In this document: positions 30,681 through 39,803 of the stretch, piece by piece
How positions within the stretch are numbered: the stretch's first letter is position 1
Layout: each line of letters starts with the position of its first letter
DNA from: Amycolatopsis sp. NBC_01480
GTDB taxonomy: Bacteria; Actinomycetota; Actinomycetes; Mycobacteriales; Pseudonocardiaceae
Direction of reading: 5' to 3'
DNA length: 64,000 bases
Assembly (NCBI RefSeq): GCF_036227205.1
Contig: NZ_CP109442.1
Coordinates: forward strand, 6,386,001-6,450,000
Made by a program: the position numbers and the translations under genes
Notes under the pieces: model-generated
What the model was told of the DNA's origin: nothing
Database searches by the model: none
The model's input: the letters and a program-made list of their open reading frames with translations, nothing else

Positions 30681-31739
30681 GTGCCTCAGCTTTCTTCGTC
30701 GCCTGCCTCGATCCGCCGCGACCTCGGGGAGGCGCCGTTCCTGGCGGCGGCCCGCGGGGAGCGGCCCGCCCGCACGCCGGTCTGGTTCATGCGCCAGGCC
30801 GGGCGCTCGCTGCCGGAGTACCGCAAGCTGCGTGAGGGCGTCGCGATGCTCGACGCGTGCTTCGACCCCGAGATGCTGGCGGAGATCACGCTGCAGCCGG
30901 TGCGCCGGCACGGGGTGGACGCGGCCGTGCTGTTCAGCGACATCGTGGTGCCGTTGAAGGCGGCGGGGCTGGACATCGACATCGTGCCGGGCACCGGGCC
31001 CGTGGTGGCCGAGCCGGTGCGCGACCTCGCGGCCGTGCGGGCGCTGCCGGTGCTCGAGCCGGAGCAGGTGGCGCGCGTCGCCGAGGGGGTCGGGCTGCTG
31101 GTCGAGCGGCTGGGGACCACGCCGCTGATCGGGTTCGCCGGCGCGCCGTTCACGCTGGCCAGCTACCTCATCGAGGGCGGGCCGAGCCGCAACCACGAGC
31201 ACACCAAGGCGCTCATGCACTCCGAGCCCGCGCTGTGGCACGAGCTCGCGGGGCGGCTGGCCGACATGGCGCTGACCTTCCTGCGCGCGCAGCTCGACGC
31301 GGGCGCCGACGCGATCCAGCTCTTCGATTCGTGGGCGGGTGCGCTGTCCGAGCGTGACTACCGCGAATTCGTCCTGCCGCACTCGGCGAAGGTGCTCGAC
31401 GGCGTCGCGGAGTACGGCGTGCCGCGGATCCACTTCGGCGTCGGCACCGGCGAGCTGCTGGTCGCGATGCGCGAGGCGGGCGCGGACGTGGTGGGCGTCG
31501 ACTGGCGGATCCCGCTGGACGAGGCCGTGCGCCGGCTCGGCGGCTCGGCGGTGGTCCAGGGCAACCTCGACCCGGCGCTGTTGTACGCGTCGTGGCCGGT
31601 GCTCGAGGCCGAGGTCCGCCGGATCGTCGAGGAGGGCCGCGCGGCCGACGGCCACATCTTCAACCTGGGCCACGGCGTGCTGCCCGGGGTCGAGCCCGAG
31701 GTGCTGACCCGGGTGGCCGAGCTGGTGCACTCGCTGTGA
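30681..31739 (+). CDS. hemE: Uroporphyrinogen decarboxylase
   Basis: A 352-residue enzyme that converts uroporphyrinogen III to coproporphyrinogen [16 protein letters not shown] holds the substrate-binding arginines and [15 protein letters not shown] the catalytic Asp. [17 protein letters not shown] and FDSWAG are conserved. GTG 30681 gives the family-like start; no Shine-Dalgarno is visible and GATAGAG just upstream suggests a leaderless transcript. The stop overlaps the next gene (GTGA), forming the heme operon hemE-cgoX-chdC. Confidence 0.95.
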
Positions 31740-33151
31740 CCCGCCGCGTCGCCGTCGTCGGCGGCGGCATCTCCGGGCTGGCCGCGGCGTACCGGCTGCG
31801 CAAACTGCTCGGCGACGACGTCGTGATCACTGTCTTCGAGGGCACGCCTTCGATCGGCGGCAAGCTGCGCACGGCCGAGGTCGGCGGCGTCCGTTATGAC
31901 GTCGGCGCGGAGGCGTTCCTGGCGCGCCGGCCGGAGCTGACGTCGCTGGTCGCGGAGGTCGGCCTCGGCGAGCGGCTGGTGCACCCGACGAAGGCGCGCG
32001 CGAAGATCCACGCCGGCGGCACCGTGCTGGGCCTGCCGCCGGGCACGGTGATGGGCGTGCCCGCGTCGGCCGACGCGGTGGCCGGGGTGCTGTCCGAGGA
32101 CGGCCGCCGCGCCGTTGAGAAGGAGCGGTCGCGGGGGCCGGTGGACCTGGCCGGCGAAGACGTCCCACTTGGCCCGCTGCTGCGCGGCCGGTTCGGCGAC
32201 GAGCTGGTGGACCGCCTGGTCGACCCGCTGCTCGGCGGCGTCTACGCGGGCGGCGCCGACGGTCTCGGCCTGCGCGCGACGATGCCCGGCCTGGCGAACG
32301 CGGTGGCCGGGGGTGCGGCTTCGCTCACCGAGGCCGCGGAATCCTTGCTGCCCAAGACTCCGGGCAGTCCGGCGCCCGTGTTCGGCACGCTGACCGGCGG
32401 CTTGTCCGGGCTGCTCGAACGGTTGCTGGAGCTTTCCGGCGCCACGCTGCGGACGTCCGCGACCGTGCGCGCGCTGACCCGGACCGCGGCGGGCTGGCGG
32501 CTGGACGTCGGCTCGGCCGCACCTGCGCACGCGCCCGAAGACACCCCGGTGGACGTCGACGCGGTGCTGCTCGCCGTGCCCGCGCCGGCCGCGCGGCGGC
32601 TGCTCGACGGGATCGCCCCGGCCGCGGCGACGGCGTTCGGCGAGGTGGAGCTGGCGTCCATGGCCGTGGTCGCGCTGGCGCTGCCGCCGGGCACCGAGCT
32701 GCCGGACGCCTCCGGGATCCTGATCGGCGCGGGGGAGCGGGATGCCTCGGGCGTGCCGTACGCGGCGAAGGCGTTCACCTTCTCCTCCAACAAGTGGGCG
32801 CATTACGGCGACGAGGAAGCCGTGCTGCTGCGCGGTTCCGTCGGCCGCTTCGGCGAGCCCGGCGCCCTGACCGGCGACGACGACGGCCTGGTCCGGGTGG
32901 TCCGCGACGACCTCGCGCGCCTGATCGGCGTGGCCGCCGAGCCGATCGACACCCTGGTCACGCGCTGGGGCGGCGGCTTGCCGCAGTACGGCGCCGGGCA
33001 CCTGGGGCGGGTCGAGCGGATCGAGCGCGCCGTCGCCGAGGTGCCGGGGCTGGCCGTCGCGGGCGCGACGCTGCACGGCGTCGGGCTGCCCGCGTGCGTC
33101 GCCACCGCGGACGCGGCCGCGCGGCGGATCGCGGACCAGCTGCGGGACTGA
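31736..33151 (+). CDS. hemY: Coproporphyrinogen III / protoporphyrinogen oxidase (HemY-type)
   Basis: A 471-residue FAD-dependent oxidase. The Rossmann motif [17 protein letters not shown] opens the protein, followed by [21 protein letters not shown]. The C-terminal FAD segment is [29 protein letters not shown] (written in part). Because chdC follows, the pathway is the coproporphyrin-dependent one, in which this enzyme (CgoX) makes coproporphyrin III. Coupled to hemE by a 4-bp overlap. Confidence 0.93.
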
Positions 33152-33152
33152 G

Positions 33153-33191
33153 TTGTCCACAGGGGGAGTGGTCCGGGCCCGGTTGTCCACA
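33153..33191 (+). promoter_or_regulatory. Two DnaA-box-like sites in the cgoX-chdC gap
   Basis: TTGTCCACA occurs at 33153-33161 and again at 33183-33191, same orientation, exactly 30 bp apart. This is the actinobacterial DnaA-box consensus. They lie right after the cgoX stop codon and upstream of chdC. They could titrate DnaA or let it modulate chdC expression. Confidence 0.5.
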
Positions 33192-33243
33192 GTGTGACGG
33201 AGGCGCTTGGCGCCCGGGCACCGCGCAGTGCCAGGATGGAGGC

Positions 33244-33936
33244 ATGGCGCGGCTGAACTACAACGAGCTCAACGACAGCATCCGTTACACCACCTGGTCG
33301 GTCTTCCGGGTCGAGCCGGGGCGGCTCGGCGAGGACCGCGGGGCCGCGGGCCGCGAGACCACCGAGTACCTCGAAGGGCTCGAGGCCAAGGGTGTCATCG
33401 TGCGCGGGGTGTACGACCTGGCCGCGCTGCGCGCCGACGCCGACTACATGATCTGGTGGCACGCCGAGGAAATCGAGCAGGTGCAGGCCGCGTACGCGGG
33501 CTTCCGCCACACGCCGCTCGGGCGCGTGTCGACGCCGGTGTGGAGCCAGACCGCGCTGCACCGGCCGGCGGAGTTCAACAAGAGCCACGTCCCGGCGTTC
33601 CTGGCCGGGGAAGAGGCGCGCAAGTACGTCTGCGTGTACCCGTTCGTCCGCTCGTACGAGTGGTACCTGCTGCCCGACGACGAGCGCCGCAAGATGCTCG
33701 CCGACCACGGCAAGGAGGCGCGGGACTACCCGGACGTGCGCGCCAACACCGTCGCGTCCTTCGCACTCGGCGACTACGAATGGATCCTCGCCTTCGAGGC
33801 CGACGAGCTGCACCGCATCGTCGACCTGATGCGCCACCTGCGCGGCACCGAGGCTCGCCTGCACGTGCGCGAGGAGGTCCCGTTCTACACGGGCACCCGC
33901 GTGCCGCCGGCCGAGCTCGTCGCGGCACTGCCGTAA
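33244..33936 (+). CDS. hemQ: Coproheme decarboxylase (ChdC/HemQ)
   Basis: A 230-residue chlorite-dismutase-fold enzyme that decarboxylates coproheme III to heme b, the last step of the coproporphyrin pathway. Y132 ([12 protein letters not shown]) matches the catalytic tyrosine and H155 ([11 protein letters not shown]) the proximal heme ligand. The N-terminus [18 protein letters not shown] is highly typical. ATG 33244 has AGGATGGAGGC upstream. A 92-bp gap separates it from cgoX. Confidence 0.96.
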
Positions 33937-35312: not shown

Positions 35313-35642
35313 TCAGCGTTTCCGGCGCTGGAACCAGCGAGGTTTCGGCAGATCGCCGCGGCTGACGAGCCAGTCGGCGAACGTGTCGGCGTACTCGCGG
35401 GCCCGCGTGGTCACGGCTTTCGGGTGCTCGGCCGCGTAGGCGTCGAACAGCGGCCGGAACCGTTCGCCCAGCGCTTCGGGCAGGTCCGGCCGCAGATACG
35501 CGACGAGCCTGCGCCGCTTGGTCAGCACCACATCGGCCTCGATCCGCAGCCGCTCCGGGTCGAATCCGGACGGGGCGGGCGCGTCGGTGAGCAGCGCCTC
35601 GAGCAGCGCCGCCTGACGGGCGGCAAGGTCCTCACGGGTCAT
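35313..35642 (-). CDS. Small DUF2063/MbnC-like partner protein (SCO6045-like)
   Basis: A 109-residue helical protein. Its layout (AARQAALLEALL, P.P.GFDPERLRI, LTKRRRLVAYLRPDLPEALGERF, PLFDAYAAEHP, FADWLVSR) matches the N-terminal DUF2063 pattern of proteins that accompany DUF692 oxidases, such as MbnC and HvfC/TglI: a Q-x-LL helix, an LGxxF turn and a Y-x-x-HP motif. It is the last gene of the DUF692 operon and probably helps the oxidase bind its substrate. The link is by pattern and position, not by search. Confidence 0.6.
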   Translation of the reverse strand: MTREDLAARQAALLEALLTDAPAPSGFDPERLRIEADVVLTKRRRLVAYLRPDLPEALGERFRPLFDAYAAEHPKAVTTRAREYADTFADWLVSRGDLPKPRWFQRRKR

Positions 35643-35686
35643 GGTGTCACCGCCGGGCGCGCGGAGGTTCGGTCTGGTGCGGGCGT

Positions 35687-35803
35687 GTTCATCGGTCCAC
35701 CGCCAGGCGTGCTGGAGCGGGCGCGTTCACCGTTCCGCCGGCAGGCGCGTTGGAGGTGGAACCGTTCCACTGCAACGTGCGCGGGCGTGGTCACCGTTCC
35801 ACC
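35687..35803. repeat. Short tandem repeat between the DUF692 gene and its partner
   Basis: Four imperfect units of GTTCACCGTTCCACCG occur at about 35687, 35725, 35757 and 35789, spaced 32-38 bp. The last unit overlaps the DUF692 stop codon. The array suggests repeat expansion at the gene end, possibly copies of the last codons. Confidence 0.5.
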
Positions 35804-36828
35804 GTCGCGCGGAGGGCGGCCAGTTCGGCGGCGAGTTCGGTGTCGGTGGGGTAGTCGTCGTCGCGTTCCAGGAGGACGCCGGGCGGGTCGGTGCGGCGGC
35901 GCAGTTCGGCGAGGAGGTCGAGCACCTGCGGGAGGACCGGGTGGGCGTGGGTGTCGTGGTAGACGCCGTCGCGCTCGATGCCGCCGGCCATGTGCACGTA
36001 GGCCAGCCGTTCCCAGGGGATGCCGTCGAGGAAGGCGGCCGGGTCGGTGCCGACGTTGCGGGCGTTGGCATACAGGTTCGCGACGTCGATGATCAGCAGG
36101 CAGCCGGTGCGCTCGGTCAGCTCGGTGAGGAACTGCTCCTCGGTCAGCTCGTTCTCCGGCCATTCCAGCAGGGCCGCGATGTTCTCCAGCGCGAACGGGA
36201 CGTCCACTATGGACTGGGCCAGGCGCACGTTCGCCACCAGCACGTCGAGCGCCTCGCGGGTGCGCGGCAACGGCATCAGGTGCCCGGAATCGAGCCCGCC
36301 CGCGCGGACGAAGCACACGTGGTCGCTGACCAGCGGCGCGTCAAGTGCCCGGCCCAGCTCGGCCAGATGCTCGACGCGCGCGGTGTCCAACGGCTCCGCC
36401 CCGCCCAACGAGAGCGAAACGGCGTGTGGCAGCACCGGAATTCCCTTGTCCCGCAAGGCAAGCAGGCTATCGGGCAGATGCGGTGCGTGCAGGTTCTCCG
36501 CGACCACCTCGACCCAGTCGACCCCGGGCATCCGCGCGATCGACAGATCCAGCTCGGCCCGCCACCCGATCCCGATACCGAGCCGAGTGCCCGCCGGCCT
36601 GGTGTCCGGGGCTGCCGGAGCGGTGGCTGTGGTTGCCTCCACCCGCGACGCCACGCTCGGCAGTGGAGCGGTGTCGACCTGCGCCGCAGGTCTGATCTGC
36701 CTTGCGGCGTCGGCCTGTGCCGCTGAGGTGGCAGGTGTTGCCGAGCCAGCCTGCGTTGCTGTGTCGGCTGCAGCTGAGTCAGCTTGCGTTGCCGCGCCCT
36801 TTTCCGCGGCCGGGTCCGGAATGGTCAT
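35791..36828 (-). CDS. DUF692-family multinuclear non-heme iron oxidase (MNIO)
   Basis: A 345-residue protein. Residues 1-80 are an Ala/Thr/Gln-rich low-complexity leader; the TIM-barrel runs from GTRLGIGIGWR to the end. Likely metal ligands are seen in VVAENLH (E111), LPHAVSL (H135), VSDHVCF (D169, H170), FALENIA (E215), IIDVANLY (D248, N251), YVHMAGG (H279), HDTHAHP (D292, H294, H296) and LLERDD (E321). Family members modify cysteines or other residues of precursor peptides (MbnB, TglH). ATG 36828 follows the upstream stop by one base, so its synthesis is coupled to the Cys-tail protein. Confidence 0.85.
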   Translation of the reverse strand: MTIPDPAAEKGAATQADSAAADTATQAGSATPATSAAQADAARQIRPAAQVDTAPLPSVASRVEATTATAPAAPDTRPAGTRLGIGIGWRAELDLSIARMPGVDWVEVVAENLHAPHLPDSLLALRDKGIPVLPHAVSLSLGGAEPLDTARVEHLAELGRALDAPLVSDHVCFVRAGGLDSGHLMPLPRTREALDVLVANVRLAQSIVDVPFALENIAALLEWPENELTEEQFLTELTERTGCLLIIDVANLYANARNVGTDPAAFLDGIPWERLAYVHMAGGIERDGVYHDTHAHPVLPQVLDLLAELRRRTDPPGVLLERDDDYPTDTELAAELAALRATVER

Positions 36829-36829
36829 G

Positions 36830-37753
36830 TCAACCGCCGCATCCGCCACCGCCGCACGAGGAGCCGCCGCCACAGGACGAGCCGCTGCTGCAAGAGGAAC
36901 CGCTGCTGCAGGACGAGCCGCCGGAAGAGCCACCGCCGCCGGACCAGGCAGGGGTGGCCAGGGCGGTGCTCAGTTCCTCGTCGGGGTACATGGCGAGGCC
37001 GCCGAGGGCGACGGCCACGGCGGCGCCGGCGAACAGCGCGCCACCGTGGGCCGCTCGCGCGAGCTCCTCCGGCCGTTCCGTGGCCTGCAGCTCTGTGCGG
37101 GCCCGGATGACCAGGGCTTCGCCGGCTGACGTCAGGTGGCGGCGCTTTCGCTGGCGGGCCGAGTACGTCGCGAAGGTCAGCACCAGCGCGACGAGCAGCA
37201 GCGCGATGAGCCCGCCCATCGGACGGCCGAGGGCAGCGCCGTTCACGCACCGCACCACCCCGACCGCCAGGACCAGTGCGTACAACAGGGAGAAGGAGGT
37301 CCGAATCTTCGCCAAACCGCCCGAGGACATGAGCAGGCCACGCCGGTCCAGGTCAGCTTCGATGTCTTTCACCGCAAGGGAATCCATGGTCCGGGACCGC
37401 AGCTCGTTGATCATCAGGCTCCGGCTGGCCTCCTTCGCGGCGGCGTGGACGGCCCGCTCCAACGGCTCTGGCGGCGTCGCGCCGGCCGCGCTCAGCTGGC
37501 GGTAGCTGTTCACGCGCAGCTGGCCACGCTCGACCAGCGCCGCGATCGCCGTGTCGATGGCGCGCGCGGCGCCGCCCACGAGGTAAGCCAGCTGGTAGAC
37601 GCCCGGCATCGAGCCGTCGTGCGTGGCGGGTGCCGAACGGGCCCGCGCCCGCACCATGGCGGCGACAACCAGCTGCGCGATCAGCAACAGCGCCAAAACC
37701 AGCCCGTACAGCACCAGGAACTGCGGGCCCGAGATACCCCACGGCTCACTCAT
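36830..37753 (-). CDS. TIGR04222-type membrane protein with Cys-rich tail (candidate MNIO substrate 2)
   Basis: A 307-residue protein. One N-terminal helix (about 11-34), two close helices (about 152-170 and 178-197) and a hydrophobic stretch near 236-253 anchor it. The cytosolic middle (60-150) is charged and helical. The last 37 residues are only Gly, Ser and Cys, with cysteines at 282, 288, 294, 300 and 305, spaced 6-6-6-5. It resembles what I recall as the TIGR04222 family, found near DUF692 genes. It overlaps functionally with the paralogue upstream and is coupled to the DUF692 gene. The tail could be modified to bind metal. Confidence 0.75.
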   Translation of the reverse strand: MSEPWGISGPQFLVLYGLVLALLLIAQLVVAAMVRARARSAPATHDGSMPGVYQLAYLVGGAARAIDTAIAALVERGQLRVNSYRQLSAAGATPPEPLERAVHAAAKEASRSLMINELRSRTMDSLAVKDIEADLDRRGLLMSSGGLAKIRTSFSLLYALVLAVGVVRCVNGAALGRPMGGLIALLLVALVLTFATYSARQRKRRHLTSAGEALVIRARTELQATERPEELARAAHGGALFAGAAVAVALGGLAMYPDEELSTALATPAWSGGGGSSGGSSCSSGSSCSSGSSCGGGSSCGGGGCGG

Positions 37754-37840
37754 CGTGTGCCCCCTCGTCGTCGGAGTTGGTGGACCCTACCGGTCCGTTA
37801 CGCCTGTTCGGGTCGGCAGAACCGACGGCCCGGGTTGCGG

Positions 37841-38785
37841 CTAGCTGCTGCCCCCGCCGCAGCCGCCGCCCCCGCCACAGCCGGAACCGCCACCGCAGCC
37901 CGACCCGCCGCCACAGCCGGAACCGCCGCAGCTCGACCCGCCACCGCAGCTCGAGCCGCCCCAAAAAGAACCGGCGATCCACGCGACACCCGCACCGGCC
38001 GCGTAGCCGGTCTGCGTTCGGCCGCGTCGCGGGGCCGTCGACGGTACGGTGCCGCGGCTGAGCGCGACCCGGATGTCGCGGTCCGGGTAGTTGGCGATCC
38101 CGCCGAGGGCGACGGCGCCGGCCGCGCCGGTGACCAGGCTCTTGTCGGCCCAGCCGGCGGTCGCGGCGGCGCGGCCCGCTTCGGTGAGCCGCGGCCCCGT
38201 GGTGCGCGTGGCCTGCGCGACCGCGACCGCCGCCAGCACGAGCGCCACGAAGGCGGCGATCAGCAGGTAACCGGAAGCCGTCCCGCGCGCCAGGTCGATC
38301 AGGAACCAGACCAGACCGGCGGTGAACAGCGCCGACTCCACGATCAGGGCGCGCTGCCAGGCTTTCCGCACCGGCGCTTCGTCGACGAAATGCCCGTGCG
38401 AGACCAGTTCTTCCGTGAGAGCCTGCATCTCCGGGCCGCGCGACAGCTCGCCGACCACTCCGGTCACGCCGGACCGGAGGCCGATGATCGCCGCGGCCTC
38501 CTGGCCGAACGGGTCGGCGGGGGCGAGCGGGGTCAGGTGCAGCCGTCCGCCGCTGTCGATGCGGACCTGCTCACGCTCGATCATCTCGGCCACCACCGTC
38601 TGGCCGACGCGGGCCGGGCCGCCGGTCAGCATCGCGACCTGCGCGAGCGACGTGAGCCGGGGGACTTCGTGGGCTCCGCGCCAGGCCTGGCGGCTGCGGA
38701 CGAAGACCCGGAGCAGCACGAAAATACCCAGCAAGATGGTTGCGCCAGCGATGATCGCGCTGTCGGTGCCCCAATTCCCGGTCAT
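37841..38785 (-). CDS. TIGR04222-type membrane protein with Cys-rich tail (candidate MNIO substrate 1)
   Basis: A 314-residue paralogue of the next gene. Hydrophobic helices lie at about 9-29, 147-165 and 172-191. TEAGRAAATAGWADKS and ALGGIANYPDRDI match the paralogue (TSAGEALVI, ALGGLAMYPDEEL). The final 40 residues are Gly/Ser/Cys with cysteines at 280, 286, 291, 297, 303 and 309. ATG 38785 is chosen because GGGAGGG precedes it; an upstream GTG in frame lacks this. First gene of the DUF692 operon. The repetitive DNA of the tail could make copy number vary between strains. Confidence 0.75.
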   Translation of the reverse strand: MTGNWGTDSAIIAGATILLGIFVLLRVFVRSRQAWRGAHEVPRLTSLAQVAMLTGGPARVGQTVVAEMIEREQVRIDSGGRLHLTPLAPADPFGQEAAAIIGLRSGVTGVVGELSRGPEMQALTEELVSHGHFVDEAPVRKAWQRALIVESALFTAGLVWFLIDLARGTASGYLLIAAFVALVLAAVAVAQATRTTGPRLTEAGRAAATAGWADKSLVTGAAGAVALGGIANYPDRDIRVALSRGTVPSTAPRRGRTQTGYAAGAGVAWIAGSFWGGSSCGGGSSCGGSGCGGGSGCGGGSGCGGGGGCGGGSS

Positions 38786-38870
38786 AGGTCCGCCCTCCCC
38801 AGTAGCGTGCCGTTGTCCCATTTTGCACGCTTCGGGGAGGGCGGGGAGTCTGTCCGGCCCTAAGTTTGGG

Positions 38871-39323
38871 TCAAGCTTGAGCCTCGGGAACCGGGACGAG
38901 CTTCATGGAGATCGAGTTGATGCAGTAGCGCTGGTCGGTCGGCGTCTCGTAGCCCTCGCCCTCGAAGACGTGCCCGAGGTGGCTGTGGCAGGAGGCGCAG
39001 AGCACCTCGATGCGGCGCATGCCCATGGCCCGGTCCTCGCGCAGCAGCACGGCGTCGGAGTCGGCCGGGTCGTAGAACGACGGCCAGCCGCAGTGGCTCT
39101 CGAACTTCGTGTCGCTGCGGAAGATCTCGGCGCCGCAGGCCCGGCACTCGTAGACCCCGGTGGTCTTGGTGTCGGTGTACTCGCCGACGAACGGCTGCTC
39201 GGTGCCGGCCTGCCGGAGCACCGCGTACTCCTCCGGGCTCAGCTCCGCGCGCCACTCCTGCTCGGACTTCACTACACGGGGGGTGGTGCCGACGACCGGT
39301 TTCATACCTTTCACCAGCCCCAC
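38871..39323 (-). CDS. msrB: Peptide-methionine (R)-S-oxide reductase
   Basis: A 150-residue SelR-domain enzyme that reduces methionine-R-sulfoxide in proteins. Two zinc-binding pairs (CRAC and CASC), GWPSF, and the catalytic Cys in QRYCINSISM are all present, as is HLGHVF. GTG 39323 directly follows the upstream stop; ATG 39305 (MKPVVGTTP) is an alternative that fits other MsrB N-termini better but has its GAAAGG too close. It is upstream of the DUF692 operon on the same strand. Confidence 0.93.
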   Translation of the reverse strand: MGLVKGMKPVVGTTPRVVKSEQEWRAELSPEEYAVLRQAGTEQPFVGEYTDTKTTGVYECRACGAEIFRSDTKFESHCGWPSFYDPADSDAVLLREDRAMGMRRIEVLCASCHSHLGHVFEGEGYETPTDQRYCINSISMKLVPVPEAQA

Positions 39324-39324
39324 G

Positions 39325-39630
39325 TTACCCCCGCAGGAAGGCGATCGCGTGCGTCACGATGTCCCATGCGGTGACGATCACGCCGAACACGATGAGGACC
39401 GCGATCAGCGCGGACACCCAGTACCGCAGCCCGCCGAGGCGGTTGCTGGAATCGGCGAAATCGCCCACCTGGTCCAGGCAGGCCTCCACCGTGAACGTCG
39501 GCCCGGTGCGCTCCATCCGGTCCAGATGGGCGGCGAACGCGAGGGCCTCCGGGTCATACGGGTCGAGCCCGACCAGGTCCTCGTGAAAACGGGGATTCCA
39601 GCCCGGTGGCACAGCTGCGCTCTCGGCCAT
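39325..39630 (-). CDS. Small single-helix membrane protein, unknown
   Basis: About 101 residues from ATG 39630 (an in-frame ATG at 39648 adds six). The N-terminal 60 residues are soluble (PPGWNPRFHEDLVGLDPYDPEALAF); one transmembrane helix follows near the C-terminus (YWVSALIAVLIVFGVIVTAWDIV). It ends one base before the msrB GTG, so the two may be co-translated. No family was recognised. Confidence 0.6.
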   Translation of the reverse strand: MAESAAVPPGWNPRFHEDLVGLDPYDPEALAFAAHLDRMERTGPTFTVEACLDQVGDFADSSNRLGGLRYWVSALIAVLIVFGVIVTAWDIVTHAIAFLRG

Positions 39631-39803
39631 GCCACCACGGTAAGCCATCGGGCCTGATCAGCACACTCCCGAAGCGGCGTGCGTCACTGGTTCGCCAGTC
39701 CCGGCGGGCCGGTGAAGGCGTCCGCCGGGACTGGCGCCGAAGCCACGATCGGAACCGCCTACAGGCGTTGTTTCGCCTACCTGCTTCTCAGGCTACCGGG
39801 CAG

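Follow-up and report, generated by a model that had tools for sequence, protein, structure and literature searches.

A candidate MNIO maturation unit for Cys-tailed TIGR04222 membrane proteins in Amycolatopsis sp. NBC_01480

An operon of the soil bacterium Amycolatopsis sp. NBC_01480 combines the gene for an iron-dependent enzyme of the MNIO (DUF692) family with those for a short partner protein and for two TIGR04222-type membrane proteins that end in Gly/Ser/Cys tails. It is encoded on the minus strand of a window of 64,000 nucleotides (contig NZ_CP109442.1, positions 6,386,001 to 6,450,000), to which the coordinates given below refer. On balance, we favor the view that these genes form a maturation unit in which the MNIO and its partner oxidize the tail cysteines and thereby produce a membrane-anchored, cytosol-facing and metal-binding tail. 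The gene set, the co-occurrence of its members, the conserved iron site and the likely fold of the partner are read directly from sequences and models. The tail cysteines are the probable target of the MNIO; a thiooxazole-like product is a tentative assignment, and copper as the bound metal is a doubtful one. The complete picture, in which a complex of MNIO and partner, often a natural fusion, makes a heterocycle-containing, metal-binding tail on a membrane protein with a GOLPH3-like core at the cytosolic face of the membrane, the tail being never cut off and never exported, is put forward with considerable reserve.

The operon, its enzyme and the partner protein

Read along the minus strand from 38785 to 35313, the gene order is TIGR04222 protein no. 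1, TIGR04222 protein no. 2, MNIO and partner; these are the four co-directional genes that a sequence-only reading of the same DNA had described. Protein no. 1 (37841..38785; 314 amino acids, with a possible longer start at an in-frame ATG at 38821) and protein no. 2 (36830..37753; 307 amino acids) match TIGR04222 (near_uncomplex) with E-values of 1.2e-20 (74.2 bits) and 7.1e-42 (143.6 bits), respectively, both above the curated cut-off of 43 bits. Their description as paralogous membrane proteins with Gly/Ser/Cys tails and cysteines five to six residues apart held as well: the 41-residue tail of no. 1 (37844..37966) carries six cysteines at spacings of 6, 5, 6, 6 and 6, each of them followed by glycine, and the tail of no. 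2 (residues 271–307; 36833..36943) carries five, at spacings of 6, 6, 6 and 5. The stop codon of no. 2 (TGA, 36830–36832) and the start codon of the MNIO gene (ATG, 36826–36828) are indeed separated by a single base. Profile searches of the genome (10.1 Mb, two contigs) recovered a single MNIO match and a pair of TIGR04222 matches, with none outside this operon. The closest named relative is Amycolatopsis saalfeldensis, whose MNIO is 97% identical.

The MNIO (35791..36828; 345 amino acids) matches PF05114 with an E-value of 2.6e-82 (276.5 bits; cut-off 25), in agreement with its initial assignment as a DUF692 enzyme. The iron ligands of TglH (H, H, E, D, N, H, D, H, E; PMC10880893) served as the reference set, and all nine positions are matched in an alignment to 8hci. 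Eight of these ligands are invariant among the 47 MNIOs that adjoin TIGR04222 genes in the survey described below, and the ninth (Glu240) is conserved in at least 90% of them. Among the NCBIfam models, the enzyme scores best against BufB (E-value 2.9e-59, 200.5 bits), yet under the equivalog cut-off of 310; the scores against the HvfB equivalog (160.1 bits; cut-off 360) and the MbnB equivalog (E-value 6.3e-11, 42.3 bits; cut-off 325) fall below their thresholds as well. The PF05114 match starts at residue 84 and is preceded by some 80 residues rich in Ala and Thr (36586..36828), with an unproven start codon; in several other Amycolatopsis loci, the MNIO domain begins directly after the TIGR04222 stop codon.

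The partner gene (35313..35642) follows the MNIO gene and codes for 109 amino acids. Its portrayal as a DUF2063/MbnC-like protein stood in part: in a fold search of the PDB with its AlphaFold model, MbnC of 7dz9 ranks first, whereas the match to DUF2063 (E-value 7.8e-5, 23.3 bits) stays under the cut-off of 27.2. A search of the PDB with the partner sequence gave no useful match. The protein falls outside the PME-type 1 partners, which combine a DUF2063 match above cut-off with a recognition element (RRE) domain for ribosomally synthesized and post-translationally modified peptides (RiPPs), as its 109 residues fit the first domain only; it belongs with the PME-type 2 partners, which have a DUF2063/MbnC/TglI-like helical fold without the DUF2063 signature and are encoded after the MNIO. 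A partner was found in all 47 MNIO–TIGR04222 loci and is fused to the MNIO in 27 of them; a second MNIO-like match of genome G153 (L093, far off on the same contig) had been mislabeled as adjacent and is excluded from this count, and at locus L244 the contig breaks off at the MNIO, which explains the missing partner. No single chain comprising MNIO, partner and TIGR04222 protein was present in the loci examined.

Co-occurrence of Cys tails and MNIO genes

The survey covered 296 genomes of the class, of which 100 have a TIGR04222 match (74 above cut-off) and 66 an MNIO; 106 of the 130 TIGR04222 matches (those with at least 30.5 bits) and 74 of the 77 MNIO matches were used. Fifty-five of the 106 TIGR04222 matches, from 47 of the 296 genomes, are found no more than 6 kb from an MNIO gene, and all 55 are encoded on its strand. 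When Cys-tailed proteins are defined by three or more cysteines in a Gly/Ser context, 38 of the 45 Cys-tailed matches stand beside an MNIO gene and 7 do not, compared with 17 and 44, respectively, of the 61 others (p = 5e-9); the neighborhood comparison that had been proposed at the outset thus supports an association of DUF692 with Cys-tailed TIGR04222 proteins. At the genome level, the corresponding numbers are 39 and 2 for Cys-tailed proteins and 16 and 26 for the others (p = 2e-8), and at the genus level the counts are 19, 2, 3 and 12 (p = 3e-5), all three p values ignoring finer relatedness. The sequence-only reading had taken it as a refutation if many genomes encoded the tail proteins while lacking DUF692; this did not materialize, since 39 of the 41 genomes with Cys-tailed proteins have an MNIO. 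In one of the two others (G079), the gene reads into a contig end, and the second (G183) is likely to be a scoring artefact because its cysteines do not lie in a Gly/Ser tail.

A matched test considered Gly/Ser tails of at least 15 residues, scored for two or more cysteines, with G183 and G209 dropped beforehand. Tails of this kind have at least two cysteines in 37 of 37 proteins encoded beside an MNIO, in 4 of 11 with an MNIO elsewhere in the genome, and in 1 of 10 without an MNIO. The gene for this last protein (again from G079) points to the nearby end of its contig, at a distance of about 140 bases, and a downstream MNIO could therefore be absent from the assembly. GC-rich codon drift as the main cause of the Cys tail was rejected, because Gly/Ser tails on the same scaffold from genomes without an MNIO are free of cysteine in nine of ten cases. 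Cysteine makes up 12.7% of the residues in the Cys-rich tails, a figure that is no test, as this group was chosen for its cysteines. In 67 of the 81 named loci, at least one TIGR04222 protein with two or more tail cysteines is encoded within 6 kb; of the remaining 14 loci, four are truncated at the end of a contig and ten are from Streptomyces. The loci of the Pseudonocardiales mostly hold one to four TIGR04222 copies, the majority of which are Cys-tailed. Cys tails seem to need the MNIO; the MNIO does not need a Cys tail.

Proposed reaction, membrane side and competing explanations

In the reaction that we envisage, the tail would be brought to the MNIO by the partner, on the cytosolic side, and a mixed-valent iron center would bind the thiolate of a tail cysteine and use O2 for its oxidation, in the manner of MbnB and HvfB. 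In these two enzymes, a mixed-valent diiron site and O2 oxidize the substrate cysteine, and the partner tunes the iron (PMC13419390). Glycine follows 164 of the 189 tail cysteines of the MNIO-adjacent proteins, a context comparable to the EGKCG of the oxazolins, and together with the MbnB/HvfB chemistry this is the reason why a thiooxazole-like oxidation of cysteine is favored; the likely product would be a thiooxazole or a similar heterocycle formed from cysteine. After its modification, the tail would remain attached to the membrane protein on the cytosolic side and might bind a soft metal such as copper, or sense or buffer metal at the inner face of the membrane. To our knowledge, the worked-out MNIO substrates are peptides. 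If a cytosol-facing tail is the substrate here, soil actinomycetes also use MNIO chemistry to equip proteins with lasting metal sites, and such a site would be a protein cofactor made by RiPP chemistry.

The AlphaFold model of protein no. 2 (pLDDT 85.2) has long helices at residues 9–40, 144–175 and 180–201 and a disordered tail, with pLDDT values below 50 across residues 271–283, 285–296 and 298–307. Its core is predicted to be GOLPH3/DUF2207-like, as suggested by a fold search with this model and by profile similarity to GOLPH3/GPP34 and DUF2207. A sequence search of the PDB with TIGR04222 returned helix-turn-helix proteins of the CRP/FNR type at E-values of about 0.002–0.005 and, for the tail, matches of low complexity, and we found no literature that pairs TIGR04222 with DUF2207 or GPP34. 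Proteins of the DUF2207 type have hydrophobic segments as well, and their tails are mostly Gly-rich (11 of the 14 C-termini read); all 14 are without cysteine, unlike the TIGR04222 tails beside an MNIO. Members of the GOLPH3 family are cytosolic, and GPP34 proteins associate with membranes peripherally and are not integral to them. Lysine and arginine are abundant after the first transmembrane helix (TM1), before TM2 and after TM3, and are scarce in the N-terminus and in the loop between TM2 and TM3. Two Cys-tailed TIGR04222 proteins (L061 of G093 and L060 of G079) are seemingly devoid of membrane helices, and that of G093 adjoins an MNIO and its partner. Because of the charge distribution, a model in which a fourth TM helix is missing, and this TM-less relative beside an MNIO, we consider it rather likely that the tail faces the cytosol; the sequence-only reading had taken no position on the membrane side.

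Several observations weigh against our proposal, the first of which concern the side of the membrane. Antoine et al. (PMC12452194) predicted the tail to be periplasmic, four hydrophobic segments are counted in 45 of 138 Cys-tailed proteins at a loose threshold, and the fourth segment could, by its hydropathy, be a TM helix in 25% of 136 Cys-tailed sequences. The MNIO-modified tail might accordingly lie outside, either through a C-terminal hydrophobic stretch that crosses the membrane or through an extracytoplasmic core, and would then resemble a membrane-bound bufferin. This arrangement strikes us as doubtful: the mean hydropathy of the fourth segment is about 0.6, compared with 1.8–2.1 for the three TM helices, the model renders this segment as two short helices, inside the GOLPH3-matching region, neither the model nor the family average contains a fourth TM helix, and both the distribution of lysine and arginine around TM1 to TM3 and the cytosolic location of the related GOLPH3 family argue for an inside tail.

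The remaining objections concern the modification itself. Co-occurrence of tail and MNIO does not equal modification, Gly/Ser/Cys tails could bind metal in an unmodified form, and four Cys-tailed proteins are not encoded beside an MNIO although their genome has one. Furthermore, family f20, recognized as Streptomyces by layout and named relatives, comprises 25 genomes with an MNIO match, nine of which have a Cys-tailed TIGR04222 gene beside it, and 15 of which keep MNIO and partner without a multi-Cys TIGR04222 tail, all candidates having been scored. Twelve of these 15 retain a Cys-less TIGR04222 protein above cut-off, and G018, G112 and G277 have none above it; in G208, also among the 15, MNIO and TIGR04222 gene sit at two contig ends, so that they were counted as non-adjacent and a gene may have been lost in the gap. 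The remaining f20 genome (G285), which has no Cys tail and is outside the 15, has only a distant MNIO-like match without a partner. The tail is therefore not the sole reason for keeping the enzyme, and the f20 MNIO either has another substrate or its tail was lost recently. The interpretation given by the sequence-only reading is upheld in part, insofar as enzyme, partner and Cys-tailed proteins form one unit and cysteine in the Gly/Ser tail goes with the MNIO.

A scan of the 15 f20 stretches for a multi-Cys tail within about 10 kb of the MNIO found only short or Arg-rich chance frames, the longest of which (L164) resembles non-coding sequence in its base composition; run without a third-base filter, the scan recovered five of five known Cys-tailed controls, and its filtered version three of five. 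Among 13 weaker TIGR04222 loci that were read, two end in a Gly tail with a single cysteine. Distant weak TIGR04222 proteins with a Gly-rich end and one cysteine are encoded at L259 (G073), L260 (G123), L261 (G101) and L262 (G133), and in these four Streptomyces-like genomes without a multi-Cys tail these proteins are possibly a substitute substrate. DUF4142 proteins (PF13628, E-values of about 1e-20) occur near the MNIO in 24 loci according to a script count (L056, L050, L045 and other Streptomyces loci). Considered as the other substrate, they have C-termini that differ, and those read possess no or one cysteine. Several of these DUF4142 proteins have a common C-terminal Y-x-L-P-P-A motif.

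The Streptomyces-like genomes also speak for an explanation in which the tails bind metal or form disulfides as plain cysteines, and in which the MNIO has a different substrate, with a residue other than cysteine as its possible target, and is found here for historical reasons. We regard this as unlikely, since it leaves unexplained both the cysteines in 37 of 37 MNIO-adjacent tails and their absence from nine of ten tails without an MNIO. The Streptomyces genomes with the enzyme but without a multi-Cys tail provide a natural contrast with which the true substrate might be found. RiPP precursors are usually cut from their leader. A true RiPP, with the membrane protein as an oversized leader and a protease encoded elsewhere in the genome that frees the modified tail, would suit the standing of MNIOs as RiPP enzymes (PMC12452194), but is quite improbable, as there is no protease or exporter among the four genes (cleavage motifs were not searched for) and a cytosolic tail would require an export route of its own.

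Known systems and flanking genes

The sequence-only reading knew of no characterized example. The pairing, the substrate idea and the short partners are not new, having been published in July 2025. Antoine et al. (PMC12452194) describe TIGR04222 as a frequent MNIO neighbor, propose subsets of these proteins as MNIO substrates via their C-proximal Cys tails, find at least 10% of the MNIO–TIGR04222 clusters to contain PME-type 2 partners, with many clusters seemingly lacking a partner, report one third of the TIGR04222 genomes to be without an MNIO, and state that the modifications and roles of TIGR04222 proteins are still to be investigated. TIGR04222 is also mentioned once in a Pseudonocardia genome paper (PMC5183585). 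The window operon belongs to the class predicted by Antoine et al., and shares with their loci the MNIO family, TIGR04222 proteins with C-proximal Gly/Ser/Cys tails, an origin mostly within the Actinomycetota, and short partners of PME-type 2. Saccharothrix sp. NRRL B-16314, the source of our locus L191, is also the strain from which they took partner model A (115 amino acids). Our results differ from theirs in that all 47 MNIO-adjacent loci have a partner and in that the tail is predicted to be cytosolic. As far as the papers considered here go, the new elements are the matched Cys-tail test, the near-universal partner with its natural fusions, the Streptomyces exceptions, and the prediction of a GOLPH3-like core combined with a tail in the cytosol.

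Bufferins (Buf1, Buf2) and the HvfA oxazolins likewise depend on an MNIO (BufB/HvfB) and a DUF2063-type partner (BufC/HvfC), and their cysteines stand in a Cys-Gly context of the EGKCG type. Their precursors are exported via Sec and their partners are DUF2063-RRE proteins (PMC12452194), whereas the Cys-tailed proteins of the window are TIGR04222 membrane proteins of 307–314 amino acids instead of short soluble precursors, and the partner has the DUF2063-like part only. The methanobactin system MbnB/MbnC shares with the operon the fold of the partner (MbnC, 7dz9) and the catalytic site of the MNIO; methanobactin, however, is a free copper-binding peptide, and the window enzyme is only weakly similar to MbnB. 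An engineered HvfB-HvfC fusion, in which MNIO and partner form a single chain, is active in vitro (PMC13419390). While that fusion is man-made, the MNIO-partner fusions of Streptomyces and others in our survey occur naturally, and their genes offer single-chain enzymes for bench work.

Directly upstream of the operon and on the same strand are msrB (TIGR00357, 160 bits) and a gene for a small protein (38871–39648). msrB lies within about 10 kb of the MNIO operon in 40 of 72 loci with full flanks, in the Pseudonocardiales usually immediately upstream, and it may be a member of the operon. Two heme genes (31592–33936), which we take to be hemY and hemQ, are located near the operon, and such genes also accompany the named loci L176–L255; hemQ is found within about 10 kb in 58 of the 72 full-flank loci, from Amycolatopsis through Streptomyces, a proximity that may reflect either a conserved gene order or a functional link. 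At L050, a gene for the peptidyl-tRNA hydrolase PTH2 (1373–2089) stands ahead of the MNIO gene, a layout that is listed as adjamnio-II in PMC12452194.

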